This document shows positions 1-52,763 of a DNA stretch of 64,000 nucleotides, one piece after another (positions within the stretch are counted from its first letter, which is position 1; the number at the start of each line of letters is the position of its first letter). The notes beneath the pieces are model-generated. The model was not told the DNA's origin and did not search any database. It saw only the letters and a program-made list of their open reading frames with translations. The stretch is from IMG/VR virus record IMGVR_UViG_3300042367_000058, positions 1 to 64,000 of that record; one strand, 5' to 3'. The DNA is from a virus. Made by a program: the position numbers and the translations under genes.

Positions 1-1
1 T

Positions 2-567: not shown

Positions 568-580
568 AAAGGAGCCCAAC

Positions 581-1180: not shown

Positions 1181-1188
1181 GGTGAATC

Positions 1189-2871: not shown

Positions 2872-2873
2872 CG

Positions 2874-3299
2874 GTGGGTAACAGATTTGCCAGTGGCAAG
2901 TTTGCGATTGCTCAATGTGATCGCTGCGACCAACGGTTTAAGTTGAGCATCTTGAAGACTGAGATCATCAAGACTAAGAACTACAACCTGCTGGTTTGCC
3001 CTGAGTGCTGGGATCCTGATCAACCGCAATTGCAGTTGGGCATGTTCCCGGTGGACGACCCGCAGGCTTTGAGGAATCCTCGCCCTGACCGCAGTTATTT
3101 GCTGTCAGGAACAAATGGCTTGCAGACTGATCCAACTGGGTCAGGTTTGGCTGGCCCGGGCACACCAGAAGCTGGTAGTCGGATCTTCCAGTGGGGATGG
3201 AATCCTGTTGGTGGGTCTTCGTTTTTTGATGCTGCCCTAACGCCAAACAACTTGGTATTAGCGGTAGAACTTGGTACAGTAACGGTTACAACGACATAA
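2874..3299 (+). CDS. Zinc-ribbon structural-module protein
   Basis: GTG start two bases after the previous stop. The N-terminal 50 residues contain CDRCDQRF and CPECWD, two CxxC pairs about 28 residues apart that should bind one zinc ion. The C-terminal half is Pro/Gly rich (ALRNPRPDRSYLLSG, then IFQWGWNPVGGSS). Small zinc-ribbon proteins commonly sit between the two adaptor genes in related phages. Its role is unknown; a structural or nucleic-acid-binding role at the head vertex is an inference. Confidence 0.8.
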   Translation: MGNRFASGKFAIAQCDRCDQRFKLSILKTEIIKTKNYNLLVCPECWDPDQPQLQLGMFPVDDPQALRNPRPDRSYLLSGTNGLQTDPTGSGLAGPGTPEAGSRIFQWGWNPVGGSSFFDAALTPNNLVLAVELGTVTVTTT

Positions 3300-3308
3300 G
3301 GAGTCGAT

Positions 3309-33484: not shown

Positions 33485-33724
33485 TTATCCGTGTTTTTTG
33501 TGCCGTGCCATGAAACGCTCGATCTGCTCGCTGTGGTCGGGGGATGGGGCGAACTCGCCCACGAACCAGTTGTAAACCGTAGTACGGCTCACACCCAGTG
33601 CCTCCGCAACTTTCGTTGCTGGAATCCCCCGCACAACGCAGAAGCGACCCAAGGCTACGCCCAAAGATTTAGCGTTGGCTTTTTTGTTCGCCGCAACCAA
33701 ACTCTGGCTGTAACCATAGGTCAT
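33485..33724 (-). CDS. Small helix-turn-helix DNA-binding protein
   Basis: 79 residues. GIPATKVAEALGVSRTTVYN with WFVGEFAPSP is an XRE-type helix-turn-helix, ending in a basic tail RFMARHKKHG. It lies in the replication operon 2 bp from the primase-helicase gene and 3 bp from its upstream neighbour. It may regulate the palindrome-bearing promoters or act at the origin; neither is shown. It is one candidate for the protein that reads the TAACA..TGTTA element. Confidence 0.85.
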   Translation of the reverse strand: MTYGYSQSLVAANKKANAKSLGVALGRFCVVRGIPATKVAEALGVSRTTVYNWFVGEFAPSPDHSEQIERFMARHKKHG

Positions 33725-40264: not shown

Positions 40265-40284
40265 AGGACTTTCCCTAACAAATG

Positions 40285-40785
40285 TTAGATTCTTTGTGTG
40301 GCCAGTTTCTCGTGCAAGATACCGATCTCTCGATCAAGATACCAACGGGCTTTCTCCAAATCTTGTAGCTTGTCACCCTTGTGATCTGATCGTGTGACGT
40401 ACTTCACCACGTTGCCCAAGTGATACGTCAAGCCCTTGGCCTCGATGAAGTCGATGGTCTCGATTCCACCTACCTTGTAATGGGTAGGGTGATTCACTGG
40501 GTCGGAGGCTGGCTCAACCATTGTGATGGGGGTGTTGCTTGTCTCCACCAGTAGTGTTTTCCACCGTGACTCTTTGCGCCCCTTGCCGATCTCATACATA
40601 CGACCAGCGTCCTTCACTGCACTGTTCTCCATCTTCTTCTTAACCATGTACGCAACTTGGTACGTGGTCTTGAACTCCTTGGCTACTGCCGCCACACTAG
40701 CGGTCGGGTGCGTAGTGAAGTACTTGCGCATCTTTGCGGCGCGGCTGTTTCCGTGGGGCTTAGTTGATTTCTTTGCTGTTGCCAT
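40285..40785 (-). CDS. DUF3310 protein with N-terminal helix-turn-helix
   Basis: 166 residues. The C-terminal domain DPVNHPTHYKVGGIETIDFI then LGNVVKYVTRSDHKGDKLQD and EKARWYLDREI is DUF3310, a widespread phage family of unknown activity. The N-terminal 60 residues (AAKMRKYFTTHPTASVAAVA then FKTTYQVAYMVKKKM) look like a helix-turn-helix. Its stop codon TAA lies in one of the palindromes. Confidence 0.88.
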   Translation of the reverse strand: MATAKKSTKPHGNSRAAKMRKYFTTHPTASVAAVAKEFKTTYQVAYMVKKKMENSAVKDAGRMYEIGKGRKESRWKTLLVETSNTPITMVEPASDPVNHPTHYKVGGIETIDFIEAKGLTYHLGNVVKYVTRSDHKGDKLQDLEKARWYLDREIGILHEKLATQRI

Positions 40786-41053
40786 TGTTAGCTCCTTGCT
40801 GTTGGCTGTTTACATACTCGGTAAGAATTTCACGAATCTTGGCTTGCTTTGTATAAGGATGGTTGGTGTTGAAGTACTCCATCACCTCCCTCGATAGACG
40901 CAAGCTCGTATTGAAAAGGGTTGGCTTCTTACTGGGGCCTCGTCCTTTCCGCTTTTGTTTTGGTTGCTCTGGTTGCTCTTGCTGTGATAAACCGCAAAAC
41001 TTGCAGTCATCACCGCTCAAGATTGGGGCTCCGCACCCCTTACATGTTTTCAT
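40760..41053 (-). CDS. Zinc-ribbon plus ribbon-helix-helix-like protein
   Basis: 97 residues. N-terminal CKGCGAPILSGDDCKFCG (two CxxC pairs, zinc ribbon), a basic linker (KQKRKGRGPSKKP), then TLFNTSLRLSREVMEYFNTN and QAKIREILTEYVN, which fits a ribbon-helix-helix or similar small DNA-binding fold. It could be a phage transcription regulator. It overlaps DUF3310 by 26 bp. Confidence 0.75.
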   Translation of the reverse strand: MKTCKGCGAPILSGDDCKFCGLSQQEQPEQPKQKRKGRGPSKKPTLFNTSLRLSREVMEYFNTNHPYTKQAKIREILTEYVNSQQQGANNGNSKEIN

Positions 41054-41226
41054 ATTGGGCTCTCCTCGTACTCATCCTGAGATTTCTTCTCTTGCTTTTG
41101 TAATTTTGTTAACCACTTGCCATCGACTCTTTGGAACGGCCACCACGTCCGTAGCTCCTCCCGACTTGGTTGTTTTGTTCGCGTACCAGAGGCTTTTCTT
41201 GGCAAGCTCTTTGTCTTTTGCTCCAT
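41050..41226 (-). CDS. Possible small basic protein overlapping its neighbour
   Basis: 58 residues from the ATG at 41226, ending RTWWPFQRVDGKWLTKLQKQ and DEYEESPI. Its stop overlaps the next start as ATGA (41050-41053), and the SD of that gene (GAGGAG) lies in its last codons, which argues that it is translated. It shares 155 bp with 41072-41380 in another frame, so one of the two may be a shadow. Confidence 0.5.
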   Translation of the reverse strand: MEQKTKSLPRKASGTRTKQPSREELRTWWPFQRVDGKWLTKLQKQEKKSQDEYEESPI

Positions 41227-41380
41227 AACTTTCCAACTCCAAATATGCTTGCATCTCCGCGCTCTGACGTAGATACAAGCGTAACCATTTAACACCGCCA
41301 AGTCTTTTGTACTCGGCAAACTCGCTGTCGGTCAACCGCACATTAGTTGGATTGACGGCTTTTTCTTTTCTTATTGGCAC
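41072..41380 (-). CDS. Small early protein (Arc-like N-terminus?)
   Basis: 102 residues. It starts IRKEKAVNPTNVRLTDSEFA and continues KRLGGVKWLRLYLRQSAEMQ, a pattern seen in phage proteins that resemble ribbon-helix-helix or antitoxin N-termini. The rest is basic. The start lies 38 bp inside the previous gene. Confidence 0.65.
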   Translation of the reverse strand: MPIRKEKAVNPTNVRLTDSEFAEYKRLGGVKWLRLYLRQSAEMQAYLELESYGAKDKELAKKSLWYANKTTKSGGATDVVAVPKSRWQVVNKITKAREEISG

Positions 41381-41600
41381 GTTTCTTCTCCATCATGTCT
41401 GGTGCTCTGGTGCTTATGTTCTTCTCTGTTATCCCGAAGATCGTGCCGTGGCTCGGGTTCTTCTCACGTATTTTGTTCAAGCCCTCGGTCATGTTGGCAC
41501 TGATGGCCGCATTGCGTTTGATGTCCTTGAATGGGTCGCCTCTACGTGCGATCTCCTGATCGGTGTACTCTTTCCAATTAAATGCGCTCACTACACTCAT
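41343..41600 (-). CDS. Small basic early protein
   Basis: 85 residues; SD GGGGAG fits the ATG at 41600. FNWKEYTDQEIARRGDPFKD, then a helical middle and the highly basic tail EKKRANKKRKSRQSN, which suggests nucleic-acid binding. No family recognised. Confidence 0.7.
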   Translation of the reverse strand: MSVVSAFNWKEYTDQEIARRGDPFKDIKRNAAISANMTEGLNKIREKNPSHGTIFGITEKNISTRAPDMMEKKRANKKRKSRQSN

Positions 41601-41739
41601 GTTGCTCCCCTGCTGATTTGGTTATAAAAATTAACTTGCACTTTGTGCATCTCCACATACGCCCCTCGACTACCACGGTTTCTTTCTCTCGGTGTTGCCC
41701 ACGCACCCTGCCGAAGAATGTACGAATCATTTCAATCAT
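41578..41739 (-). CDS. Small zinc-finger-like protein
   Basis: 53 residues from the ATG at 41739 (SD GGAGGAG). The C-terminal WRCTKCKLIFITKSAGEQHE with a following Cys forms a C-x2-C ... H-x-C zinc-binding pattern. The start overlaps the previous stop (ATGA at 41736-41739). Confidence 0.75.
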   Translation of the reverse strand: MIEMIRTFFGRVRGQHREKETVVVEGRMWRCTKCKLIFITKSAGEQHECSERI

Positions 41740-41933
41740 GCTTGCTCCTCCCAACGTCTGCACATCTCTTTGACTGTCTTGCTTTTCCTCTTGCCCTTAC
41801 ACACGTTGCTCACCGACTTTTGTTTGGCCTTGGCTTGCAACTGCGCTGGGGTCAAAGGTTTTGGCGGCTCGGGAAATAATCCGTTCAAACCAACCCCACC
41901 CATTGCTAAGCAAAGAATGATTCTGCTAATCAT
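41736..41933 (-). CDS. Small protein with N-terminal signal or membrane segment
   Basis: 65 residues. N-terminal MISRIILCLAMGGVGLNGLF could be a signal peptide or anchor, then Pro-rich PEPPKPLTPAQLQ and a basic end with two Cys. It overlaps both neighbours by 4 bp. Possibly exported. Confidence 0.7.
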   Translation of the reverse strand: MISRIILCLAMGGVGLNGLFPEPPKPLTPAQLQAKAKQKSVSNVCKGKRKSKTVKEMCRRWEEQA

Positions 41934-42448
41934 GCGAATACCTTTATGAGTTTGTTAAGAGACAAAGGTGCTTGCTTCCCACCATGCTGATCGCCGTTAA
42001 GTGGGGGTCGTAGTACGTGGATGTACAAAGACTCAAGACTGTCGAGCATGTCTTTACCGCAAGGTATGAATGCAAAACTGTCGAACCTCTTGTCATAGTG
42101 TTGGGCAATTCTTGCGTACACATTGACTGACTGCCCAACATAAATAACCTTGTCCCCACCAATCAAAAAATAAACGCCTGTTGCTAATTCCCAAGGGTTA
42201 GCCGCACCAACGATCTCGGCTTCGCTCAGCAAGACTTTGTTCGTCAAGGTCAAGGCAGTCTTATCGCTCAACTCATGGCGTTCCAAAATTCCACGCTTTA
42301 ATTCCAACGCTTTGATCTCACACTTCAAACTGTCTCGGCGTTCAATGTCTAAAAGTCTTTGGGCATCTCGCTCGCGCTTGTTCTTTTGGCGTGTGGCTAC
42401 GCCCTTAGCGGCAATCGCTTTACGCTCCTCGGGTGTTTTGTCAATCAT
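41930..42448 (-). CDS. GIY-YIG nuclease-domain protein
   Basis: 172 residues. The N-terminal 85 are a charged coiled coil. The nuclease module TGVYFLIGGDKVIYVGQSVN with VYARIAQHY (near 90-120) has the GVY..YVG core, R, and a downstream ESLYIHVLRPPLNG with the catalytic Glu. It may be a homing enzyme or a host-DNA nuclease. Confidence 0.88.
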   Translation of the reverse strand: MIDKTPEERKAIAAKGVATRQKNKRERDAQRLLDIERRDSLKCEIKALELKRGILERHELSDKTALTLTNKVLLSEAEIVGAANPWELATGVYFLIGGDKVIYVGQSVNVYARIAQHYDKRFDSFAFIPCGKDMLDSLESLYIHVLRPPLNGDQHGGKQAPLSLNKLIKVFA

Positions 42449-42657
42449 TCTTCCCCCTGATGTTCATACAGTCGCTTCTCTAGTCGCTCAATGCGTTGTT
42501 GGTTGTACTGAACGATTGACCTTGCATACTCCACTGCGCTTTCAGCTTCTAGCTTCTTGATGACGGCCTCACGCATTTCTTTCTCGATGATTTCACTGAT
42601 GGGCTTTGGCTTCATCAGTTCCTTGATGTACTTGAGCGTTGAATCTTTCCAGCTCAT
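42445..42657 (-). CDS. Small coiled-coil protein
   Basis: 70 residues, nearly all helical: STLKYIKELMKPKPISEIIE then AVIKKLEAESAVEYARSIVQ and RIERLEKRLYEHQGEE. Both ends overlap neighbours by 4 bp. It resembles small DUF-type phage coiled coils of unknown use. Confidence 0.75.
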   Translation of the reverse strand: MSWKDSTLKYIKELMKPKPISEIIEKEMREAVIKKLEAESAVEYARSIVQYNQQRIERLEKRLYEHQGEE

Positions 42658-43043
42658 GTGTTTCTTTCTTTTAATGCGGCTTCAATGTCACGCACCATCT
42701 CCAGCAAAGTGCCTCTGCCACACCCACACTGAAAATCTTCCCAGTCCCAGTAGCTTTCTACTTCCTCATCCGTCAGCCCTACCCATGTGCGCGGGGGTCG
42801 CATAGACAGTTTGATGTTGGCAACTCTTAGTTCGCCAACCAAGTCGTATGCATGCTCTTCCAGTCTTTTGATATGCGCATTAGCTTTCTCAAGTTCTGGC
42901 GCATTCGCCTCAATGATGCGCTCACGTTCTTTGGCGGCTACCAGTTTGGCAAAGGCAATGACAACTGGGTCATGCCAGTTGGTGTCATGGTTTGGGTTGT
43001 TGCTTGCAACTTTCCACATATGCTCAATTTCTTCTTGTGTCAT
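42654..43043 (-). CDS. Conserved phage early protein (TWVGLTDEE type)
   Basis: 129 residues. WHDPVVIAFAKLVAAKERER, then helical text, and the phrase RTWVGLTDEEVESYWDWEDF followed by a cysteine pair (QCGCGRG) and LEMVRDIEAALKERNT. This recurrent sequence is known in many proteobacterial phages with no assigned function. Confidence 0.8.
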   Translation of the reverse strand: MTQEEIEHMWKVASNNPNHDTNWHDPVVIAFAKLVAAKERERIIEANAPELEKANAHIKRLEEHAYDLVGELRVANIKLSMRPPRTWVGLTDEEVESYWDWEDFQCGCGRGTLLEMVRDIEAALKERNT

Positions 43044-43243
43044 TTCAATCCCCTGATATAAATTGCAAACGAATCAACTGTGTCCTTACCGAACACAGTC
43101 ATCTTCTCCACATGCTGTGCTATCTCCTCGATGACCTGCGCTCGGTATGGGTTAAGAGATACGCTGGCTTTCACAGCCTCCTTGCGTTGCTGTGCTTGTC
43201 GTTCAATCTCGTTGAACGCTTCGTCTTCGGGGTCGTCAATCAT
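43040..43243 (-). CDS. Small helical early protein
   Basis: 67 residues from the ATG at 43243; an upstream extension to 43270 overlaps the preceding membrane peptide and is unlikely. IDDPEDEAFNEIERQAQQRK leads into ASVSLNPYRAQVIEEIAQHV. Four-base overlap with the following gene. Confidence 0.7.
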   Translation of the reverse strand: MIDDPEDEAFNEIERQAQQRKEAVKASVSLNPYRAQVIEEIAQHVEKMTVFGKDTVDSFAIYIRGLK

Positions 43244-43355
43244 TCTTTCCTCCGTTCTGCATCCAGTCAAGTGCGTATAAGAACACTGCTATCGCCACAC
43301 CACCAAGGCCAAGGCCAATAAACAGCACCGCAATCAAAGCCATTACATCTAACAT
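43236..43355 (-). CDS. 39-residue membrane peptide starting in a palindrome
   Basis: Sequence opens MLDVMALIAVLFIGLGLGGV, one membrane helix to about residue 29, then a short charged tail (MQNGGKND). The ATG lies in the centre of the palindrome 43349-43362, with GAGGAG 8-14 nt upstream, while the preceding gene's TAA is the other half (TAA-CAA-ATG). The stop overlaps the next start. Short but well supported by context. Confidence 0.75.
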   Translation of the reverse strand: MLDVMALIAVLFIGLGLGGVAIAVFLYALDWMQNGGKND

Positions 43356-43358
43356 TTG

Positions 43359-44222
43359 TTAGGTCTCCTCATCCATCAATACAACAAACACTTCGTCGTT
43401 CACACGACAGCCTACGTTCTCAATGAAGTACTCGGCATCGACTAGCTTCAACATACCCAATTTGCCTCGCATCGTTTCGGGGAGGCTATTATCATCGTAA
43501 AGTTGAACATCGTCACCCACTTTGACTAGGTACTTACCACCATCTTTTACCACTACTGCGGCATCCCTATTCTCGAAGTGTTGCTTCACCTTCTCGATAG
43601 TCAGCATTTCGGAATCAATGCGTTCTTTCTCGTTGATACTTTTGGTGATTCGGTTTTTGTCGATGTCGTGCCAGCTTTCAACGTGGGCGAGGAACAAAGG
43701 AAAGCCAGTTCCCATGATGAATTGCATGGCCGCATCGCGCACAGTACGCTCGTGGTCATACTTCGCGTTGTCCTTCCTACGCTTTTGCGTAGCAATAACA
43801 GCATTCGCCGCTTTCACAGCGTTCTCAATCCGCTCGGTTGGCTTGAGTTTGTAGAACATCTTCTTGGCTTTCAAGATAGCCTTATCCGCATCCGCAGTCT
43901 TGTACCCACCACGACGCACTCGCTCCTTACCGATGCGCTCGTTGGATACGTGGATAACGTACTCACGTCCGTGGTAGTGCCGCTCGATAATGCCCAGCTC
44001 CTCGCCATGCTCTACTACGCTGAACGCTGTGACTCGTAATTGGTTGTCTGAAGAATAAGTCACATCGATTGCCACGAATCTCCACAAAGGATTCAATGTG
44101 GCCAGACGTTGGATGACTGGGTCTATCAGCTTATCCACAAACGCTATCTCGCGTTTGTTCGCGGCGGCGTTTTCTTTCAGCTTGTCGCTGATCTTTACGT
44201 TGCTCAGTTCTAATGTGTTCAT
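43359..44222 (-). CDS. Partner protein of the MoxR-VWA module, unknown
   Basis: 287 residues. Helical N-terminus (NAAANKREIAFVDKLIDPVI), a beta region (FVAIDVTYSSDNQLRVTAFS, then EYVIHVSNERI) and a basic middle (ATQKRRKDNAKYDHERTVRD). The C-terminus is strand-rich and acidic. No catalytic pattern is seen. Co-located 10 bp from the next member of the MoxR-VWA cluster, so shared function is plausible. Confidence 0.7.
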   Translation of the reverse strand: MNTLELSNVKISDKLKENAAANKREIAFVDKLIDPVIQRLATLNPLWRFVAIDVTYSSDNQLRVTAFSVVEHGEELGIIERHYHGREYVIHVSNERIGKERVRRGGYKTADADKAILKAKKMFYKLKPTERIENAVKAANAVIATQKRRKDNAKYDHERTVRDAAMQFIMGTGFPLFLAHVESWHDIDKNRITKSINEKERIDSEMLTIEKVKQHFENRDAAVVVKDGGKYLVKVGDDVQLYDDNSLPETMRGKLGMLKLVDAEYFIENVGCRVNDEVFVVLMDEET

Positions 44223-44231
44223 GTTTTCTCC

Positions 44232-45083
44232 TTACCACTCGAAACGTTTAAGAATGTCATCTACCTTGGACTTCAACTCGATGCGAGAATCCGCATGTTC
44301 CTTGATGTCTTCGATGTCAGCACCGATCATTACCAACTCCAACTGTCTACGTGCTTCCTCCAGCTTGGGGTCGTTGGTCACATTCAGCTTGGTCAGCAAC
44401 CCACACAACTCGATGGGGTTAGTGATAAGCGTGTCGTGATACCGCTTCTTGGAATCTTCATTCACATCAGTCAACTTCTCGGATATACCTACTAACATCT
44501 TATGCAGACGCTCCCACGGCTCACGCATTGACTCGGCCAGCTTCTTGTCTTGTTGCTTCAAGAACTCGCTGCGCATTTCATCTAAGTCATGCGCTGGTAT
44601 GTCCAAGCGAAAGTCACCGGCCTCGGGCACAGGCTTGACTGTGCGTCGGAACCCAAACTTCAACCTAACATCTGTTAGGTCGGGGTAGTCCTCGGCTTTG
44701 TACATAGTGCCTAAGTTGGTAGGTGCTTCTGCAACAAGACGCGGGTACTCCAAGAAGAAGTTGTTGCACATCATGTTGAATGTCTGCTCGAACCCATTTA
44801 TGGTCTGCTTGTAGTCCATGAACAACGCAGTCGGCAACATGCGCTCACCCTTGTCAGCCCACGGCAACGTATGTCTGTTGTGATACAGGCGAACCCTCGC
44901 GGCAAAGTCCGAGATGTCTTTGCGTAGCGAAGTACCTGCAAACAGATTCTTCTTGGTCTGCGATGCACCACGTACCGCTGATGCGTCCGTGTTCACCTTG
45001 TCGGTTACTTCTTTGTCCAGCTTGGATGCTGGCCACACACTGATGTTCAATTCCACTAACACTGCTGATGCACTAATACTCAT
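44232..45083 (-). CDS. DUF3150-like component of the MoxR-VWA module
   Basis: 283 residues. SISASAVLVELNISVWPASK, then ASQTKKNLFAGTSLRKDISD and LPWADKGERMLPTALFMDYK is the pattern, as I recall it, of DUF3150-type proteins that accompany MoxR ATPases and CobT/VWA-like proteins in phages and plasmids. The C-terminal half is helical. The start ATGA overlaps an 8-codon mini-ORF born in palindrome 45105-45118. No enzyme motif. Probably an adaptor or substrate of the ATPase-VWA pair. Confidence 0.65.
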   Translation of the reverse strand: MSISASAVLVELNISVWPASKLDKEVTDKVNTDASAVRGASQTKKNLFAGTSLRKDISDFAARVRLYHNRHTLPWADKGERMLPTALFMDYKQTINGFEQTFNMMCNNFFLEYPRLVAEAPTNLGTMYKAEDYPDLTDVRLKFGFRRTVKPVPEAGDFRLDIPAHDLDEMRSEFLKQQDKKLAESMREPWERLHKMLVGISEKLTDVNEDSKKRYHDTLITNPIELCGLLTKLNVTNDPKLEEARRQLELVMIGADIEDIKEHADSRIELKSKVDDILKRFEW

Positions 45084-45114
45084 TTCATTTCTCCTTGGTT
45101 GTTTCTAACATTTG

Positions 45115-46338
45115 TTAGTTCTTGATGTGGATGGTCTTGCCGTTGTCGGCCTCGCCATCAAAGTAGTCACCGACAATGCACCACAACGTAGGTGCAGTCC
45201 ACTCGCTACCCCAGTCATCGCCCACGCAACCATCGGTCAGGATGATGACGCACTCAGGCTTGATGTTCTTCTCCTTGAGATACTCAGAGATACAGCTTGG
45301 GCTCGTACCACCACCGCCCTTGGGTCGAGTCGATGCAATGATGTTGGCCGCTTCACCATCACCATAGGTCTCGTGCTGAACCACACTGCTACCCCAGTAC
45401 AACAAGTCCACACACGCAGGGTTTACTTCTTCCGCGATACCCTTAACCTCGGACAAGAACTCACCAAGCTCTTCATCGCCCACCGAACCCGATGTGTCAA
45501 CAGCGATTACTAAGTGGCCCACCTTCTCACCGATAAGCGTCGGCATGTACATGCCTGTGGATAAGAACCTACGATTAACCCTGCGCCATGACGATGCGTC
45601 CTTGGCATTGCACGTTGACTTCACGAAGTCACGCAGTACCTCACGCCAGTTGATCTTGGGCTCAAGCAATTCAGCAAGCTCACGATCAAGCCCATCTGCC
45701 CCGCTACCCGCAATCTTCTGACGTGCCATCATGCCTTGGCGAATGGCTTGGTCGATCTCACGCTCAAGCTCTTTCTTCTCCTCCTCGGTCATGTTCTTGG
45801 CATCATTCCAGTCGTGGTCGTCCATACCACCACCGCCTTCACCATCGCCATCACCGTCACCTTCACCGCTCTCCTCTTTCTCCTGCTTGAGAATGTCGAA
45901 GACTTGCTTGGAGTTCATGCCACGGAACCGCTCATCTACCAAGCCCATCACCTTACCCGCCATCGGATGTCCGTTTGGGTAGCGAGGCATAGCGATAACT
46001 GATTCAGTCGGATCGAGGTCTTTGAGCATCAGGTTAATAACGTAGTCACAAGCTTGGTTGGCCAGCGCGTGATCTTCATCATGCAACTTGCGCCATGTGG
46101 TCAAGTGTCGATACATCTTGTGGCCGTTCTCGTGGGCTACAAGGAAGTTCAACTCTTGGTCACGCAAAGACTTCACAAACGCACGTCCGTATCGCTCATC
46201 ACGTCCGTTGGTACACGCAGTCGGGATGTTATCCACTACGCTAGTTTTGCCTACCATCAACACACCAGACAGCAATGCGAACTTGGGGTTACGCATCAAC
46301 GTAATCTTGGCCTTCTGTACTTTCCGTTCTTCTAACAT
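45115..46338 (-). CDS. Metallopeptidase-VWA protein (DUF2201/CobT-like)
   Basis: 407 residues. Zincin motif HENGH at 69-73 in the N-terminal domain. A middle acidic Gly/Asp linker (ESGEGDGDGDGEGGGGMDDH) leads to a C-terminal von Willebrand A fold with MIDAS DTSGS at 281-285, then GGGGTSPS and ILTDGCVGDD. This is the standard partner of MoxR ATPases. The ATG is inside a palindrome and the previous gene's TAG overlaps it. Whether the zincin is active is unknown. Confidence 0.88.
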   Translation of the reverse strand: MLEERKVQKAKITLMRNPKFALLSGVLMVGKTSVVDNIPTACTNGRDERYGRAFVKSLRDQELNFLVAHENGHKMYRHLTTWRKLHDEDHALANQACDYVINLMLKDLDPTESVIAMPRYPNGHPMAGKVMGLVDERFRGMNSKQVFDILKQEKEESGEGDGDGDGEGGGGMDDHDWNDAKNMTEEEKKELEREIDQAIRQGMMARQKIAGSGADGLDRELAELLEPKINWREVLRDFVKSTCNAKDASSWRRVNRRFLSTGMYMPTLIGEKVGHLVIAVDTSGSVGDEELGEFLSEVKGIAEEVNPACVDLLYWGSSVVQHETYGDGEAANIIASTRPKGGGGTSPSCISEYLKEKNIKPECVIILTDGCVGDDWGSEWTAPTLWCIVGDYFDGEADNGKTIHIKN

Positions 46339-46556
46339 TTGTTAGCTCCTTCTTCGTTTTCATTTAACATTTCACATACTTTCCTACACACAGTTTCATC
46401 CTCGTGCTTGAACATAGTGTTCCAGTCCTCGTCCCTCACGCACCAACCCAAGACAACTATTTCCCCATGTCGATTGGTTGCGGTTATCCACTGCACAAAG
46501 TACCGCGCTTCCAACTTCTTGCGCAGTTCTTTGTAGTCAACGTTTGTTGTGTTCAC
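46332..46556 (-). CDS. Small protein between VWA and MoxR genes
   Basis: 74 residues. NTTNVDYKELRKKLEARYFV, then GEIVVLGWCVRDEDWNTMFK and CRKVCEMLNENEEGANKC. Mixed alpha/beta with five Cys. It is coupled to both neighbours (ATGA at 46553, TAG inside the VWA start palindrome). Its conserved place suggests a small accessory subunit; no family known. Confidence 0.7.
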   Translation of the reverse strand: MNTTNVDYKELRKKLEARYFVQWITATNRHGEIVVLGWCVRDEDWNTMFKHEDETVCRKVCEMLNENEEGANKC

Positions 46557-47629
46557 AGCAGGTCTTGATTCTTCGCAACCCAGTCAGCAAACGCCTTCGC
46601 GCTGAACGCAATGCTCTGCTTCTCCTTGGTCTTGGCAATGTTGATAGCGAACACTGCTTGCCACTCGGCATCGAACCGTTCCAAGTACTCCATGAATGGG
46701 GCGATGGTGTCTTTCTCGATACGTGTGATAGCACCGAACACCACAATGGCACAAGCGCCGGGGCTTGTTGGTATCTTCGTATGCTTAGGGTCTTTGATGG
46801 TTGCTTCCCACGTTGGCAGTTGGTCAGCGAACTCGATGTACGCTTGCATGTCACGCGAACCACTCTCACCAATCGCACCAGTCAACGCCGCAATCACAGA
46901 GTCAGGGTCGTTCTGCTTGCGAGTCCGGACAATGTTGCTTGCAGTTTCCAGCGAACGTGGAGACACGAACGCAGTCTGTGGCTTCTTGGGGTTGAAGATG
47001 TAGGGGTTGTCGTTCTGCCCACCATCGGTGTAGCTTGCGAGCACATGGGGAAAACGGTTGACCCAAGCAATCACTTCGGGCTCGATGCCCTTGCCAATCG
47101 CCCACTCAATCCATTCATCCGCAGTCGGCTTGCCAATCGTCAGGGGAACCAAACGATTCATACTGTGCGACTTCAAGCTGTCGCCCACGCCGTCGGTGCT
47201 CAGGTTGCCAGTCAGAAACACAATGGTCTGTTGGTCGCCTTTGCTTGGCAGGGGGATGTCACCGAGTCGGGGGTTGGCCTTCTCAAGCATGGGGTGAAGC
47301 ATGTTCTTCACAGGGTCAGCACCCTTGGTGAACTCGTCGAGCATGATGACTAAGGGTTTCTTCTCATGCAATTTGAACCGAGCATTAGGGTAATACCTAG
47401 TGGTCTTGGTGTCGTGGTCGATCACAGGCATTGCGATGTCGCCCAAGTCCATATTGGGTACGTCGATATACGCATATTCATAACCCAGCTCACCAGCGAT
47501 GTTCTCCAACAGGGAAGATTTCCCGATGCCGGGCTCACCACGCAACAAGAACCGAGTCTCAGGGTTGGTGCGAATCAATGTCGCGGCTTGCTTCAGGGTC
47601 ACGGTCTTACCAAATTTAACTTCTGACAT
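46553..47629 (-). CDS. MoxR-family AAA+ ATPase (CobS-like)
   Basis: 358 residues. Walker A RGEPGIGKSSLLEN (about 29-40), Walker B PLVIMLDEFTKG (about 93-103), sensor-like FLTGNLSTDG and an Arg-rich RSLETASNIVRTRK. MoxR ATPases remodel or load metal or proteins onto clients with VWA partners; here the client may be a host or phage complex. It starts an operon with its own promoter at 47711-47739 and a palindrome in its leader. Confidence 0.9.
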   Translation of the reverse strand: MSEVKFGKTVTLKQAATLIRTNPETRFLLRGEPGIGKSSLLENIAGELGYEYAYIDVPNMDLGDIAMPVIDHDTKTTRYYPNARFKLHEKKPLVIMLDEFTKGADPVKNMLHPMLEKANPRLGDIPLPSKGDQQTIVFLTGNLSTDGVGDSLKSHSMNRLVPLTIGKPTADEWIEWAIGKGIEPEVIAWVNRFPHVLASYTDGGQNDNPYIFNPKKPQTAFVSPRSLETASNIVRTRKQNDPDSVIAALTGAIGESGSRDMQAYIEFADQLPTWEATIKDPKHTKIPTSPGACAIVVFGAITRIEKDTIAPFMEYLERFDAEWQAVFAINIAKTKEKQSIAFSAKAFADWVAKNQDLL

Positions 47630-47710
47630 TTCTAACTCCTCTGATTCCTAACATTTGTTAGGTTTGTTGAAAAAACTTACACACGAAAACACTTCTCCAT
47701 ACCAGCTTAT

Positions 47711-47739
47711 ATTATAACACATTGTTACATATAAGTCAA
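47711..47739 (-). promoter_or_regulatory. Strong promoter with embedded TAACA-N3-TGTTA operator, copy 1
   Basis: Minus strand TTGACT (47734-47739), 17-bp spacer, TATAAT (47711-47716). The spacer contains palindrome TAACACATTGTTA (47715-47727). A leader palindrome (47648-47661) lies 50 bp further downstream. About 27 bp around the -10 (CCAGCTTATATTATAACACA and beyond) are repeated at the 50.76-kb promoter. Confidence 0.88.
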
Positions 47740-47743
47740 GTAA

Positions 47744-47929
47744 TTAGCCTTCACTTGCCTTGAACTTCTCCCACTCTCCGACCAGTTGGTTGCGAACCTT
47801 CTCGTCCTCAATCACTTTGCGCAACACGAACTCGGTCATGTACGCCTCGTGCTTGTACTTAAAAGCGTAGGCAGTAGCGACTGCGGCCCAGACAAACAAT
47901 GCAATCTCTGCAATAGATAACTCAATCAT
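47744..47929 (-). CDS. Small single-pass membrane protein
   Basis: 61 residues. IELSIAEIALFVWAAVATAY is a membrane segment, followed by a charged helix (EFVLRKVIEDEKVRNQLVGE). The upstream palindrome (47939-47951) encodes a 7-codon reading frame, Met-Leu-Gly-Glu-Gly-Asn-Asp, that ends within this gene's start. Confidence 0.75.
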   Translation of the reverse strand: MIELSIAEIALFVWAAVATAYAFKYKHEAYMTEFVLRKVIEDEKVRNQLVGEWEKFKASEG

Positions 47930-47951
47930 TTCCTTCTCCTAACATTTGTTA

Positions 47952-48917
47952 TTACCACTCAATCATCCACTTGTCGTACTTACCACTCGACACCTTGCCC
48001 TGCGGCATTACCTCACGCACCAGTACATCGTGTGCGTAGAACTGAAACAGTATCTCGTCCAGCTTGGGCACGATGTGATTGGCTTGCACGATTGTCTCGT
48101 CGGCTCGCATGTCCATCCTGTCGCTTTCTGCCTTGGCAATCAGCAACAACGCCGCTTTGTAGAAGTTGGTGTGCTTGACATCCTCGGGTTGGTCGGGGCG
48201 AATCAAGTGCTCGAACTTGGTAGCCGATTCTCTGTACTGCTCGGGCTTGACCGGCGAGTAATTTATGTGTTGCGCCCCACGCTTGTCCATGTAGCAATAC
48301 TCACGTATATGCAGAAGACCGCCGCATGTGTTCTTGAACTCCTCCAATGGCACGACGATGCAATCCTTCTCGGGTGCGTAATAGCTGGTCTTGGCTTTCT
48401 CGGTGCGCAGATTCACGAACCCCTTCAGGTACTTGTAAAAGTCTGCGTAGATGGCTCTCACGTTTGCCGTGGCTTTGCGGTCAAGCTTCCAGCCATACTG
48501 CGTGGTCGGGTTAAGAGGATGCCAATTCCCATCCCCGCCCCGCTTCAGGCGTAGCTTCTCGCCGTTGCTCAACACAACTTTAACGCCGTTGATGGCAAGC
48601 ACGGTCTTGCCCCGCAGTCCACTCGCAGGGATACCAAGAATACGCGCGATGAATTGGTGTGTGGATACTGTGTCATACCCATCGGTGAATACCACCACTT
48701 CTTCCTCGGGCGTGAACGTGATGACCGGAGTCTTGTACAAGACCAACTCAATCGCCTCGCCATTCTTGCGTATGTGGTACTTGTCAACATCCCGTCGGTC
48801 ACCCAATGGGCGAACCTCGGGCGAACGCCCACGAATCGGTTTGCTGATGTCGTGTAGTTGCTTGGCGTGTCTGTGGTTGTCCACTCTCGGCACTCTCATT
48901 ATTGTTGCGTATCCCAT
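47952..48917 (-). CDS. Conserved early phage protein, unknown
   Basis: 321 residues from the ATG at 48917 (overlapping the previous stop as TGATG). TIMRVPRVDNHRHAKQLHDI, then PIRGRSPEVRPLGDRRDVDK and FTPEEEVVVFTDGYDTVSTH. Basic N-terminal half, helical C-terminal half (FYKAALLLIAKAESDRMDMR). It reads like a phage early protein with a possible nucleic-acid-binding N-terminus; no known motif. Confidence 0.75.
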   Translation of the reverse strand: MGYATIMRVPRVDNHRHAKQLHDISKPIRGRSPEVRPLGDRRDVDKYHIRKNGEAIELVLYKTPVITFTPEEEVVVFTDGYDTVSTHQFIARILGIPASGLRGKTVLAINGVKVVLSNGEKLRLKRGGDGNWHPLNPTTQYGWKLDRKATANVRAIYADFYKYLKGFVNLRTEKAKTSYYAPEKDCIVVPLEEFKNTCGGLLHIREYCYMDKRGAQHINYSPVKPEQYRESATKFEHLIRPDQPEDVKHTNFYKAALLLIAKAESDRMDMRADETIVQANHIVPKLDEILFQFYAHDVLVREVMPQGKVSSGKYDKWMIEW

Positions 48918-49078
48918 CACACACCTCCTGTTGTTTTGTATGCCTTGATTTTCTTCAGCGATGGATTGGCTACCTTGAACCTCTCCTTCGCCAGCTTCAT
49001 GTTGTTGGCTACGATACTCTCGGCAACCCAGTTGCTGAACTTACCGCACCACCCTGTAACGTAGTATCTACATAACAT
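48917..49078 (-). CDS. 53-residue protein with palindrome start
   Basis: Sequence MLCRYYVTGWCGKFSNWVAE, then SIVANNMKLAKERFKVANPS and KKIKAYKTTGGV. Basic and helical. The ATG is the centre of palindrome 49073-49085 with GAGGA upstream, and the TGA overlaps the start of the next gene. Not longer than common ORF cut-offs but strongly supported by both junctions. Confidence 0.75.
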   Translation of the reverse strand: MLCRYYVTGWCGKFSNWVAESIVANNMKLAKERFKVANPSLKKIKAYKTTGGV

Positions 49079-49089
49079 TTGTTAGTTCC

Positions 49090-49407
49090 TCACAACATCC
49101 CACAATCAGGGCAACGAAAAGTATGCCCTTTGATCTGCTTGCTCGTATGCCCACATACACATTTGTGCTCGTATATCTCCAACCCTGTGGTCGAACCTGT
49201 GCGTATCACGTTGCCCACATGATGGCTGATTGCACTCAGCCTTGCACACACATCCGAATACATGGCATGGGCTTGCGCCAAATACTCAGGGTCAGTCTCA
49301 GGGTTTGCCATCAACTTGAGAATCATCTCCTCCATGTGGGCTCTGCTCTTGTTTATGTTCGTCCATTGCCGCAAGGCCATGTTTTGTTTTGCTGTCTGTA
49401 TGTTCAT
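49090..49407 (-). CDS. Helical protein with C-terminal zinc ribbon
   Basis: 105 residues. The N-terminal helix bundle (AHMEEMILKLMANPETDPEY, then HAMYSDVCARLSAISHHVGN) ends in CVCGHTSKQIKGHTFRCPDC, a zinc ribbon of two CxC/CxxC pairs. It overlaps the next gene by 4 bp. May bind nucleic acid. Confidence 0.75.
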   Translation of the reverse strand: MNIQTAKQNMALRQWTNINKSRAHMEEMILKLMANPETDPEYLAQAHAMYSDVCARLSAISHHVGNVIRTGSTTGLEIYEHKCVCGHTSKQIKGHTFRCPDCGML

Positions 49408-49604
49408 AACCTAATCTCCTTCGGTTGCTTGACCTTCACCTCATACCCAAGCATCTGTATGCGCTTGATGTCCTCGGGTAAAAGCGTTTTCGTCCCTGCG
49501 ATAGCCGCAAAGATTTGCGCCTCACCGCATACTGGGTATATCTTGGCCTGTCCGTATACGTCCTTGACCTCGACCATGATGATGTTGTTTTGGTTTTCTA
49601 ACAT
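49404..49604 (-). CDS. Small protein with palindrome start
   Basis: 66 residues. LENQNNIIMVEVKDVYGQAK, then IYPVCGEAQIFAAIAGTKTL and LGYEVKVKQPKE. Alpha/beta. The ATG is the centre of palindrome 49598-49610 and the previous gene's TAA is its other half (GAATAACAAATG). Confidence 0.8.
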   Translation of the reverse strand: MLENQNNIIMVEVKDVYGQAKIYPVCGEAQIFAAIAGTKTLLPEDIKRIQMLGYEVKVKQPKEIRL

Positions 49605-49607
49605 TTG

Positions 49608-49769
49608 TTATTCCTCCTCGTATTGTTTTAAGTAAGTGATGTATTTCTCCACACTCGCCCATGTTTCGGGTAGGGCTAGGTCGTGTGCGGTAGCAAAATC
49701 CGCATTCGCAATCTCACCCATGAGGGCTTGCAAATTTTCTAGCTTGTTTATCATTTCTTCTATGTTCAT
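49608..49769 (-). CDS. Small helical protein
   Basis: 53 residues from the ATG at 49769, overlapping the previous stop (ATGA). NIEEMINKLENLQALMGEIA, then NADFATAHDLALPETWASVE. The stop lies in a palindrome. Longer frame to 49808 contains part of the previous gene and is not needed. Confidence 0.75.
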   Translation of the reverse strand: MNIEEMINKLENLQALMGEIANADFATAHDLALPETWASVEKYITYLKQYEEE

Positions 49770-49933
49770 ACTGCCTCCCTTAGTTGTTGCACCACCATTG
49801 CATCCCAACCATCTCGGTTGGACTCAGCCCACGCTATTGCTCCTTCTTCAGAATCGAATAGCCCATATATCCTCGATGGTTCGTGGTTAAAGAATACTGT
49901 GACCACCCATTTCCCTGTGTCTTTATCTAACAT
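49766..49933 (-). CDS. 55-residue protein with palindrome start
   Basis: LDKDTGKWVVTVFFNHEPSR, then IYGLFDSEEGAIAWAESNRD and DAMVVQQLREAV: two strands and two helices with a Trp-rich core. The ATG is in palindrome 49927-49939, with GAGGAG upstream. Too short for standard length cut-offs, but continuous with both neighbours by overlap. Confidence 0.75.
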   Translation of the reverse strand: MLDKDTGKWVVTVFFNHEPSRIYGLFDSEEGAIAWAESNRDGWDAMVVQQLREAV

Positions 49934-49936
49934 TTG

Positions 49937-50110
49937 TTATTCCTCCTCGGTTGGCTCAATGTTCAACAAGCTCATCACCTGACTGATACAGCAATGCGTG
50001 TCCTCCAAGTACTCTGCTCGGTACTCGGCGGGATTCGACAAGAATCGGCGCAGGTCAATCTCCACCGCCGCAATCAGCTTCAATGCTTTCTCGTAGTCGT
50101 GCTCAGTCAT
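49937..50110 (-). CDS. Small helical protein
   Basis: 57 residues from the ATG at 50110 (SD GGAGAG). TEHDYEKALKLIAAVEIDLR, then RRFLSNPAEYRAEYLEDTHC. The stop TAA forms the left half of palindrome 49927-49939. The longer frame to 50173 is mostly the neighbour's shadow. Confidence 0.75.
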   Translation of the reverse strand: MTEHDYEKALKLIAAVEIDLRRFLSNPAEYRAEYLEDTHCCISQVMSLLNIEPTEEE

Positions 50111-50258
50111 CGGTGCTCTCCCATTGTTCTTCGGGTAAAAAGTGCATCGCTTTGTCGTCGGGTATATCTGCAATTAACTCAGCAATCGCAGTCACATCCC
50201 CTGCTTCAATGTCTTTGGCAATCTGTTCCAACACTTTGTCTATCAACGCTTTCTTCAT
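50103..50258 (-). CDS. 51-residue helical protein
   Basis: KKALIDKVLEQIAKDIEAGD, then VTAIAELIADIPDDKAMHFL and PEEQWESTDD. This AGDVTAIAEL pattern is common in small phage early proteins. The start ATGA overlaps the zinc-finger gene upstream; the stop overlaps the next start by 8 bp. Confidence 0.78.
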   Translation of the reverse strand: MKKALIDKVLEQIAKDIEAGDVTAIAELIADIPDDKAMHFLPEEQWESTDD

Positions 50259-50503
50259 GTCCGCAACTCCTTCTGGTTAGTCTGCTTCAAGGTTATGGGT
50301 GCTTGAGTACGTGTAACAAGCTGATATGGGCCTTTGCCGTACTCTTGAACAATGCACCAGCCCATGCGCTCGGTCTGGGCGCTGTGCTCACGGTCACGCT
50401 CGCAGAAGATACAAAAGGCTTGGTAGCGTGAAGTTGGTACGTCATCGCCGCAGTCAATACATTCTTTCCATTCCAATGACAAACTTGTTTGGCTTTCTAA
50501 CAT
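50255..50503 (-). CDS. Zinc-finger early protein with palindrome start
   Basis: 82 residues. ECIDCGDDVPTSRYQAFCIF then CERD: two CxxC pairs 13 residues apart. The rest includes GWCIVQEYGKGPYQLVTRTQ. The ATG is the centre of palindrome 50497-50510; upstream stop and start are separated by only CAA. Confidence 0.8.
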   Translation of the reverse strand: MLESQTSLSLEWKECIDCGDDVPTSRYQAFCIFCERDREHSAQTERMGWCIVQEYGKGPYQLVTRTQAPITLKQTNQKELRT

Positions 50504-50506
50504 TTG

Positions 50507-50665
50507 TTAGTCTCCTTTGTAGTTCAGGGCTTCGGTGATGATGTGACCGAAATACAAGCCGCCGATGATGAGGCTGGTTTTGTGCAGGATGCCTTCGCCA
50601 CTCCAACCGAACAGGGTGAAAGCAATGGCAAGCGCAGTGCCGATGATGTAAAGAAATGGTGTCAT
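50507..50665 (-). CDS. First gene of the leftward operon, 52-residue membrane protein
   Basis: TPFLYIIGTALAIAFTLFGW, then SGEGILHKTSLIIGGLYFGH and IITEALNYKGD: two likely membrane helices. ATG at 50665 has SD AAAGG; the stop is the TAA of palindrome 50497-50510. It follows the strong promoter at 50759-50787. Holin-like or superinfection-exclusion roles are possible for such first genes, but not shown. Confidence 0.72.
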   Translation of the reverse strand: MTPFLYIIGTALAIAFTLFGWSGEGILHKTSLIIGGLYFGHIITEALNYKGD

Positions 50666-50758
50666 GAAGTACCTTTCGTTTTGTTACGTTACAAATCTAA
50701 CAGTTGTTAGATTCGGGTTTTTTGGTTGTTACGTTTCGTTTTGTCCCAACCAGCTTAT

Positions 50759-50787
50759 ATTATAACACATTGTTATGGGAATGTCAA
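50759..50787 (-). promoter_or_regulatory. Strong consensus promoter with embedded operator, copy 2
   Basis: Minus strand TTGACA (50782-50787), 17-bp spacer, TATAAT (50759-50764): perfect boxes. TAACACATTGTTA (50763-50775) sits across spacer and -10. A leader palindrome (50697-50710) lies 49 bp downstream of the -10, matching the 47.7-kb promoter layout. Confidence 0.92.
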
Positions 50788-50944
50788 GTTTATCGGGCAA
50801 GGTTTGGCGCAAGTGTTGTTATGGAATTTGAGTTGGGTGATGTTATAGAAAAGGGGCAAATGTTCAGTTTTTGAGGGTGGTTCGTAACAATAGGAAAAAT
50901 ATAACAATTCAACAACGACGGGGCTTGGCGGGGAAAAAAGGGTG

Positions 50945-51293
50945 TAATGTTATAATGTTATAATGTTATGAGTATATATATATGGGTCGCCAAAATGGTT
51001 TTGCACAAAGTCTGCGCTTTGTTATGCACTTGCTGAGCGGCTCGAACTTGGTGGACTTCCATACTGCTCGCATAACATTATAACATATAACAAAGCTTAT
51101 GAATCAAGGACTTACGAAAAGCGTAACGTAACAAAGCGTAACAAAACGCCGCTTTTCATAACAAATGTTAGGTTGGTCGCTACGCCCGCCCGAAGAACTG
51201 GTATAGCTGAAACTTCGCCCGCTTTGTTCTGTTACGTTTTCCCTCGTATGCGCAAGTGGCTACGCCCACCCGAAGAACTGGTATAGCTGAAAC
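50945..51293. other. Repeat-rich non-coding region, candidate origin or control region
   Basis: No gene is supported between 50,666 and 51,411. It contains: direct TATAATGT units and an AT-rich run AGTATATATATATGG at 50945-50984; a 16-bp inverted repeat (50955-50970 against 51071-51086) enclosing 100 bp; repeated CGTAACA units at 51122-51145; a 35-bp direct repeat (51179-51213 and 51259-51293, one mismatch); and palindromes at 51159-51171 and 51337-51361. AT-rich units plus inverted arms resemble a replication origin, but no initiator-binding evidence is available. Confidence 0.6.
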
Positions 51294-51368
51294 CTTCGGG
51301 GAAACAAAAATGTAACAAAGCCCAAACGTAACAAAACCCAATCTAACAATGTTAGATTGGGCAGACGC

Positions 51369-51392
51369 AAAAAAGCCCGCATAAAGCGGGCT
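51369..51392 (-). terminator. Intrinsic terminator of the 52.2-51.4 kb unit
   Basis: Minus strand AGCCCGC / GCGGGCT stem (51374-51380 and 51386-51392), loop TTTAT, then six T residues. It ends the short transcript carrying the two genes at 51412 and 51659. Confidence 0.9.
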
Positions 51393-51411
51393 GTGGTTAA
51401 GAGGATAAGGG

Positions 51412-51594
51412 TTAAGCGTGTCGGGCATCCAATTCAGTTTGAACCATATGCCATGCGAGATTAGTCGCCATCGCCGCCGCCTGCCATGCAATGCGGACTT
51501 CTTCGGGTGAACCGATACCATTCAAGATGTCGGTCAATTCATCGGGGGTTTGTGGCGTGTGAAACAATTTAATTTGGGTCAAAGGGTTTTGCAT
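51412..51594 (-). CDS. Small helical protein
   Basis: 60 residues from the ATG at 51594 (SD GGAG); the frame can extend to a TTG at 51618. QNPLTQIKLFHTPQTPDELT, then DILNGIGSPEEVRIAWQAAA and LAWHMVQTELDARHA. Helical, with no known family. Its leader holds palindrome 51612-51626 followed by six T residues, a possible attenuator. Confidence 0.7.
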   Translation of the reverse strand: MQNPLTQIKLFHTPQTPDELTDILNGIGSPEEVRIAWQAAAMATNLAWHMVQTELDARHA

Positions 51595-51611
51595 TTCATT
51601 CTCCAAAAAAT

Positions 51612-51650
51612 CTAACAATTTGTTAGAAACCTAGGGTTTCCCCTAGGTTT
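51612..51650 (-). promoter_or_regulatory. Paired hairpins between two early genes (attenuator-like)
   Basis: Minus strand: AAACCTAGGG-GAAA-CCCTAGGTTT (51627-51650), a perfect 10-bp stem with GNRA loop, immediately followed by CTAACAAATTGTTAG (51612-51626) and six T residues. The second hairpin and T-run could stop transcription; the first could compete with it. Function inferred from structure. Confidence 0.6.
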
Positions 51651-51658
51651 CCGCTCAA

Positions 51659-52204
51659 TTAGACCGCTTCAGTCTTAAGGTCTGAAACTGTCCCGCCGAG
51701 TGTGGCGTATGCTTCGCACATCAATTCGTAGATTTCAATCATGCGCTCGCTCGCTTCGGTCTTATCATCACGGCCATTGTTTATGCGGTTGATAATAGTC
51801 CCAATCTCTGAGCGGGTTTTGGCCATCGGGTCTGCCGCTTCGCCTTGAACCGAACCGCCTTTTTTGGGTCTGCCGCTTGCATTCTTTACCCGTGACCAGT
51901 ATTCATACTCTACGCCTTCGGCGTAACCTGCGGCCATCAAATCATCCTTGAAACCCTTGAATTCTTCCCGAACCGCAGTGGCCGCTTTGCCTGTCAAAGC
52001 ATACCAAGGTTTGATTACTGTCCCTTGCTCATCGGTGACGTTGAACGTTTTGCACATCCAAGCGGCGTAAACCCCCAAGGACTTACCTTCTACCTTGATG
52101 CCTGCAATGTATTCACGGCGTGCACCTACTAACTTGGACAGACTATCACCGACTGACTGAACCGGTGCGATTACTGCCACGGATTGTGTTGAAACTGTAT
52201 TCAT
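51659..52204 (-). CDS. First early gene, unknown regulator-like protein
   Basis: 181 residues. VGDSLSKLVGARREYIAGIK, then GKSLGVYAAWMCKTFNVTDE and PWYALTGKAATAVREEFKGF, then SGRPKKGG basic region and an acidic helical end. Conserved-looking central domain without a known motif. It has its own promoter and a 5' leader with an inverted repeat (52230-52246), so it is likely an immediate-early regulator. It is a second candidate for the palindrome-reading protein. Confidence 0.7.
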   Translation of the reverse strand: MNTVSTQSVAVIAPVQSVGDSLSKLVGARREYIAGIKVEGKSLGVYAAWMCKTFNVTDEQGTVIKPWYALTGKAATAVREEFKGFKDDLMAAGYAEGVEYEYWSRVKNASGRPKKGGSVQGEAADPMAKTRSEIGTIINRINNGRDDKTEASERMIEIYELMCEAYATLGGTVSDLKTEAV

Positions 52205-52279
52205 GATTCTCTAACCTTCTAATGAATTCCCTAGTAACAGACTAGGTAACCGATGCAATCATCTTGTTTGCATGGTTAA

Positions 52280-52309
52280 ATTATACCTCAAATTGTGGTA
52301 CAAAATCAA
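52280..52309 (-). promoter_or_regulatory. Sigma-70-like promoter of the first early gene
   Basis: Minus strand TTGATT (52304-52309), 18-bp spacer, TATAAT (52280-52285). A palindrome copy (52346-52358) lies 37 bp upstream of the -35, an activator-like position. Confidence 0.8.
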
Positions 52310-52763
52310 GTTTCAAGGAAACAAAATTAAAAACGGGGCAGTGGCCTAACAATGTTAGATTCCGGTCAGGGTTTACCCCATACCCCCAAATCCACAGCAA
52401 AGGGAGGTGGGGACCCCATACACAGTGTGTTGCTCACCCGATACTCACCACCGTACTTTCTATAACGCCGTGGTACATTTACGGGGTTCTGTCGGTCAGT
52501 TTTTCTTAAGGCCATCTGGAGTACCCATTTGAAATACCCCCCTCCCCCCTTACTTTTTCTGGATTACGACCTAAACGAGCCTTTTCCAAAAACACCCCCC
52601 GTCACTTTTTATTTGCCCAACCCCCCACCCCTATTATTTTTTCTGTTACATTTGGCCCGTTGGTGAAAGCAAGGTACTTAGGCACGGTGAGAGAGCTTGC
52701 CCGATAGGTTGTACCAGCGCCCGGAGCCGCTTAGGGCCACCAACCCCCTCTTTACGGAGTGCC
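52310..52763. other. Divergent non-coding region upstream of terminase, candidate pac/cos region
   Basis: About 450 bp with no supported gene. It contains the palindrome 52346-52358, a G-rich stretch near 52400 (GGGAGGTGGGGACCCC), and several C-tracts at 52537-52548, 52594-52599 and 52620-52632. The terminase genes begin at 52764, and phage packaging sites often lie just upstream. I see no convincing rightward promoter. Confidence 0.5.

Follow-up and report, generated by a model that had tools for sequence, protein, structure and literature searches.

A dispersed palindrome array with genome-typical half-site spacing over the early operon of an uncultured aquatic phage

Introduction

Among the phage systems in which one short DNA site recurs many times, the stoperators of cluster A mycobacteriophages, bound by the L5 protein Rep, comprise more than 20 short sites placed genome-wide in promoters and short intergenic spaces; the motif, which is important for immunity, varies from one relative to another (PMC9283540, PMC6550527). 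The SAS of cluster K mycobacteriophages are confined to non-structural genes, lie near start codons and sometimes hold the stop of the previous gene, and in the associated ESAS the repeats are inverted and their spacer varies (PMC3203893). In SPbeta, one short motif, SPBRE, stands at many genome places and is bound by a phage-encoded master repressor, MrpR (PMC10516654). Here we analyse a recurring palindrome, TAACA-N1-3-TGTTA, in the leftward early region of an uncultured aquatic phage known from a 66.2-kb virus record (IMGVR_UViG_3300042367_000058), the first 64,000 nt of which form the window studied. The palindromes form a real array, confined to the early operon in the window, strongly constrained, with fixed half-sites and a spacing of 1, 2 or 3 bp typical of each genome.

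Results

A palindrome array confined to the early region

In the 66.2-kb record, leftward genes are early and replication genes and rightward genes are structural. A first-pass annotation of the window had noted a palindrome, CTAACAAATGTTAG in its 14-bp duplex form, recurring in the leftward early region, and counting bore this out. With up to two mismatches allowed, CTAACATTTGTTAG gave 22 strand-matches against 0.35 expected from dinucleotide shuffles. The exact form TAACANNTGTTA (TAACA-N2-TGTTA) was found at 13 places, all within 40276-51170. Allowing a spacer of 1-3 bp between the half-sites raised the count to 18 exact sites (13 N2, two N1 and three N3), as opposed to three at most for random half-sites used as a control. 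The annotation had proposed a check for equal frequency in shuffled sequence or structural genes; the element was enriched over shuffles, and the 66.2-kb record held no exact N1-N3 site outside 40276-52357. Density of the CTAACA/TGTTAG half-sites in the array region was about 10 times that in the rest of the window.

Spacing is typical of each genome

We fetched 80 related loci carrying the DUF2201 gene. Their arrays have about 10-23 palindrome copies along the early genes, and most loci keep the half-site with one genome-typical spacer length: 21 were of class N1, 45 of N2 and 6 of N3, with 3 mixed and 5 lacking sites or degenerate. On full-length or near-full contigs the array spans 11-27% of the genome and no copies occur elsewhere; in a few N1 records, lone copies lie at a greater distance. 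According to class, the DUF2201 start codon lies in TAACA-A-TGTTA, TAACA-AA-TGTTA or TAACA-AAA-TGTTA. Likewise, the terminal site before the operon's terminator is conserved in relatives with a spacer that follows the genome's class.

Spacer class changed at least eight times on a tree of 62 loci. The close sisters L011/L015 and L013/L022 differ in class, their aligned sites differing by one centre base, and homologous sites in relatives show 1-bp centre indels. In a non-redundant set of 658 sites (80 loci plus window), the centre was AT-rich and not fixed, AA in the coding sense being commonest. Two loci carry variant sites, GTAACA-N-TGTTAC in nine copies (L083/G031) and TAAC-N3-GTTA in eight, mostly without ATG (L080/G030). 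An N2 array-bearing contig (L023/G009) has genes broken into many frames, probably by sequencing errors. No close isolate of this phage was present in the phage collection searched, and tblastn of genome contigs revealed no prophage relatives.

The first-pass annotation had anticipated relatives with the same gene order and no element as a point against it, and such relatives exist. Nearly all sites have disappeared from L029, L036, L038 and the 61-kb G053, the last keeping one; these relatives retain gene order, start codons, the ribbon-helix-helix-like gene described below and, where covered, a helix-turn-helix (HTH) gene. L222, which lies in G053, has AACATTCAAGGGTAA in place of the terminal palindrome; L155, close to the array-less clade, still has the terminal site. 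G027 and its closest kin (L320-L325) have no sites and no HTH gene, whose two neighbours abut or overlap, and in a wider group the HTH slot is present with no TAACA array. A replacement motif was looked for in array-less genomes and none was found. Array-less relatives keep the genes and some keep the HTH, so translation does not require the site, nor can the array be predicted from the HTH alone.

Sites are constrained as DNA

Comparison of relatives showed how sharply the sites are constrained. In three same-class pairs, sites were 96-98% identical against 82-84% in their flanks; other same-class pairs were less extreme (86-90% against 80-84%). When array-bearing genomes were paired with array-less ones, the order was reversed, sites falling to 55-59% identity with flanks at 78-84% (Fisher p about 2e-6 for L020 and its array-less sister L029). 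Class-matched sites comprised 561 exact and 80 one-mismatch copies (38 expected by chance). There was no G-U excess among site mismatches, 5 changes being of the wobble type and 9 of the mirror type. Symmetry extends to the outer base (C/a..G/t) as well as the half-sites, and centres occur in both orientations, which is not the behaviour of asymmetric sites.

One intragenic site provides codon-level evidence. Inside gene 44232-45083 the N2 palindrome at 44666-44677 reads CTA ACA GAT GTT AGG, and N2 genomes alone keep the series CTA/ATA ACA xxx GTT AGG/ATG, made of unusual codons, the centre codon varying between GAT, AAT and TCT. N1, N3 and array-less genomes have ordinary codons at this place, for example TTG GAA GAT GTG AAG. 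Re-spacing this site would shift the frame; it is also missing from some N2 loci.

Judged from sequence comparison, the palindromes thus behave as dispersed, sequence-conserved sites that appear to be under selection as DNA. Because of the identity pattern, the excess of exact sites, the lack of a wobble excess and the symmetric outer base, the constraint points to recognition of the duplex by a symmetric protein over an RNA hairpin.

Positions of the sites in the window

Six palindromes, all N2, supply start codons (43355, 46338, 49078, 49604, 49933 and 50503), each with a GGAG/GAGG-type Shine-Dalgarno (SD) sequence 5' of it, as the first-pass annotation had stated. Four of them also hold the stop of the preceding gene: 50498-50509 (stop of 50507-50665, start of 50255-50503), 49928-49939 (stop of 49937-50110, start of 49766-49933), 49599-49610 (stop of 49608-49769, start of 49404-49604) and 43350-43361 (stop of 43359-44222, ATG of a 39-aa open reading frame, 43236-43355). 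The other two are 49073-49084, at the start of 48917-49078, and 46333-46344, at the start of the DUF2201 gene 45115-46338, where relatives have a spacer of 1, 2 or 3. The TAA of the palindrome is a stop at two further N2 sites, so that stops at 50507, 49937, 49608, 45115, 43359 and 40285 are all confirmed. At 45106-45117 it ends 45115-46338 and the ATG is unused. At 40276-40287 it ends the DUF3310 gene (40285-40785, minus strand), the last before this terminal site, and is followed by the intrinsic terminator that closes the array-bearing operon (40264-40245, minus strand) and by the minus-strand promoter TTGACA-16-TATATT (40230-40203) of the replication operon.

The remaining 12 of the 18 sites are not starts. 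Apart from the terminal site, directly before the terminator, and the intragenic one, three lie in gaps between a stop and the next SD: that at 45106, an N2 site ahead of the AAA ATPase gene's SD (47649-47660) and a further N2 site flanked by the 47952-48917 stop and the 47744-47929 SD (47940-47951). Four are in leader or intergenic sequence: 50698-50709 (N2, 3' of promoter 50787), 51159-51170 (N2, centre in the opposite orientation), 51344-51354 (N1) and 51613-51625 (N3, between genes 51659-52204 and 51412-51594). Two N3 sites fall within the spacers of early promoters, 47715-47727 in 47739-47711 (TTGACT-17-TATAAT) and 50763-50775 in 50787-50759 (TTGACA-17-TATAAT, 12 of 12). Finally, the N1 site at 52347-52357 lies in the divergent intergenic region, 5' of the -35 of the first early promoter (52309-52280).

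The annotation's suggestion of selection for a palindrome on top of a start codon did not survive, as about 80% of relatives' sites are not starts (129 of the 658 are, and about 130 are intragenic), an intragenic site is conserved, and array-less relatives keep the starts.

Some neighbouring features were also recorded. In 51336-51392, the N1 palindrome at 51344 sits within a longer, almost perfect inverted repeat that scans as a terminator (51362-51336) and lies directly behind another terminator. A stretch, GTTTCAGCTATACCAGTTCTTCGGG, is repeated in the leader at 51140-51300, and GTAAC/GTTAC motifs are numerous at 50.6-51.4 kb. In most relatives of any class, the early sigma70 promoters (window 47711-47739 and 50759-50787) have a conserved spacer, ATAAC[T/A]TTGTG[G/T]TATAATATAAG, which looks like one half of the palindrome. 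The end of the record (62980-66202) is about 79% identical to 1-3303, in structural genes, reflecting either a diverged duplication or an assembly running round the circle into another strain.

Candidate binding proteins

Three phage genes have DNA-binding signatures. The first encodes a 79-aa Cro/CI-like HTH protein (33485-33724, minus strand), located outside the array in the replication operon. It matches Pfam HTH_3 above cut-off (2.7e-7), and its AlphaFold2 model (predicted local distance difference test, pLDDT, 86.6) is Cro/CI-like, with Foldseek matches to P22 c2, CylR2 and SinR at 1-2 A over about 50-57 residues, the E-values not being significant. Across spacer classes the recognition-helix region is nearly constant and the C-terminal part varies, as expected if half-site reading were fixed and dimer geometry varied. 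A link of residues 28 and 75 to spacer class was considered and was weakened by L281 and L282.

The second, a 97-aa protein (40760-41053, minus strand), looks ribbon-helix-helix (RHH)-like by its sequence pattern, with a basic KRKGRGPSKKP arm and an N-terminal Zn-ribbon-like segment; its AlphaFold2 model is of low confidence (pLDDT 65). The third is the adjoining DUF3310 protein, whose relatives frequently have an HTH-like N-terminus. The first early protein (51659-52204), put forward as a binder by the first-pass annotation, is unlikely to be one because array-bearing G005, G006 and G008 have no detectable homologue. No early gene strictly co-occurring with the array was found, most of the clusters compared being shadow open reading frames.

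Discussion

A probable dispersed operator array

We favour, with a probability of about 0.62, the view that the palindrome forms a dispersed DNA operator array over the leftward early operon, bound by a dimeric protein. A symmetric, phage-encoded protein would bind the sites as duplex DNA and act at many points, on promoters and on elongating polymerase, which would lower early transcription. The spacing preference of this dimer would have shifted, dragging the whole array along. Its mode of action would resemble that of mycobacteriophage stoperators or SPbeta SPBRE, but with a true palindrome as the site. Of the second functions that the first-pass annotation had offered, the operator is therefore the one supported, and a translational coupler or RNA-binding site is disfavoured. 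That the sites overlap start and stop codons seems incidental, a TAACA..TGTTA site being cheap to place at a gene junction.

We put at slightly below even odds a more specific proposal, that specificity is set by half-site spacing and not by half-site sequence. The dimeric phage regulator would have repeatedly changed register (outer half-site centres 9, 10 or 11 bp apart), 1-bp indels bringing all 10-23 sites into line, and the resulting lineages would be mutually incompatible in their regulation.

As to the protein, the Cro-like HTH, which the first-pass annotation had also named, and the RHH-like protein are the leading phage candidates, the former a tentative and the latter a rather doubtful one, and another phage or host factor may be the binder instead. 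Several observations weigh against these proposals, and every binder remains an unproven candidate. Later HTH sequences blur the correlation with class, and no residue separates the classes cleanly. The HTH gene is found far outside the array-bearing clade, array-less G053 retains it, and its tree agrees with spacer class no more closely than those of neighbouring genes. HTH, SSB-like and DUF927 trees required 4-5 class changes on one locus set and other genes 7-10 on another, so that no gene stands out. Wherever the region is covered in array-bearing genomes, the RHH-like gene is present, as is the HTH gene, and both also occur in array-less relatives; the RHH-like protein has a weak Pfam match, below cut-off, and of the trees compared that of its gene agrees least with spacer class (10 changes against 7-9). 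A role as lysogenic repressor finds no support, as no integrase was identified among the window proteins scanned and no prophage relative was found. Moreover, many sites lie far from any promoter, so that an effect on elongation must be assumed, and within promoter spacers the exact palindrome is limited to the window, L006 and L013, most relatives carrying a class-independent ATAACTTTGTGGTATAAT there. An operator acting at promoters only was rejected on this last account.

Alternative explanations

It is improbable, though less so than the explanations below, that the sites are operators for a host-encoded regulator that the phage has hijacked. Arrays of sites for host factors are documented in phages, the precedent being the CtrA sites of alphaproteobacterial phages (PMC9437464). 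The absence of any phage gene that follows array presence or spacing perfectly would also fit. However, the close sisters L013/L022 and L011/L015 differ in spacing, which would need frequent changes of host factor. Nor is the site CtrA-like, the CtrA site being TTAA-N7-TTAA.

A quite unlikely explanation is an RNA-level element, in which an mRNA hairpin at starts and stops serves as a translational coupler or as the target of an RNA-binding translational repressor. Six starts and several stops do overlap palindromes in the window, AA in the coding sense is the commonest centre, and a weak hairpin of 5-6 bp with a 3-4-nt loop could form (-1.1 to -2.7 kcal/mol). Yet G-U wobble is not tolerated and the half-sites are fixed, without compensatory or wobble pairing. 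Starts are a minority of sites and intragenic copies equally numerous, the site at 52347 lies 5' of the first early promoter, centre orientation is reversed at many sites, array-less relatives keep their starts, and Rfam gave no match. The missing G-U tolerance, the intragenic and promoter-upstream sites and the symmetric half-sites thus speak against coupling or RNA binding, and we conclude that the palindrome is not a translational coupler.

Replication, partition or packaging sites, such as ParB/KorB-like arrays or origin iterons, would likewise be dispersed palindromes with AT-rich centres, and the 50.6-51.4 kb region is repeat-rich; they are very unlikely here, as the array is spread over a 7-16 kb transcription unit and ends at its terminator, and no ParA/ParB was found among the proteins scanned with Pfam. 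Least likely of all are recombination or mobile junction cassettes, short gene-border repeats promoting module exchange, comparable to the promoter-stem-loop cassettes of T4-type phages: copies are many at gene junctions and gene content varies between core genes, but such cassettes leave unexplained the codon-level conserved intragenic site, the genome-typical spacing and the heavy substitution in array-less sisters.

Taking the sites as operators, close relatives offer a natural series (1, 2, 3 bp, lost) of one operator array, so that co-evolution of a regulator with 10-23 target sites becomes directly readable and testable. If spacing alone sets specificity, close phages could become incompatible in their regulation by a simple route. 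More generally, start codons drawn into palindromes need not imply translational control.

Comparison with known arrays

On the features tested, the array is not a member of the SAS or of the L5 stoperators. It shares with the latter its many short sites in promoters and intergenic spaces. L5 stoperators, which halt transcription elongation once the repressor is bound, are, however, 13-bp asymmetric sites, monomer-bound and oriented with transcription, whereas those described here are palindromes with a constant half-site and variable spacing, and we saw no homologous repressor. Like SAS and ESAS, the palindromes lie near starts and stops in non-structural genes. SAS are asymmetric with the SD inside them, whereas the palindrome is 3' of the SD; and SAS are nearly all at translation starts, unlike the present sites, some of which are intragenic. 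SPBRE is similar in being one short motif repeated at many places of a phage genome; it differs in that its sites were mapped to promoter regions, that MrpR has a recombinase fold and that spacing switches are not described in the text consulted (PMC10516654).

An analogous array with another half-site is present in Rhizobium phage RHph_TM3_14A (L245, 15000-60889), which shares the replication gene set of this phage at low identity (polymerase 36%), and such arrays therefore recur in this broad lineage. It comprises 27 dispersed TTACC-N5/6-GGTAA palindromes, with both spacings in one genome, and differs by its half-site, wider centre, more intragenic sites and some sites outside early genes. 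RHph_TM3_14A has no clear HTH orthologue; one of its sites is just 5' of EVB41_045, which has a weak HTH match.

Two further systems are close in architecture. The CIR of Streptomyces phage phiC31 are dispersed palindromic repressor sites over the early region, of different sequence and with a different repressor. The C repressor of Rhizobium phage 16-3 uses one half-site with two spacings, and a 2006 study reportedly, by its title, concerns spatial differences in its operator complexes; 16-3 operators are few and do not form an array. What is new relative to all these known arrays is that the spacing changes in concert.

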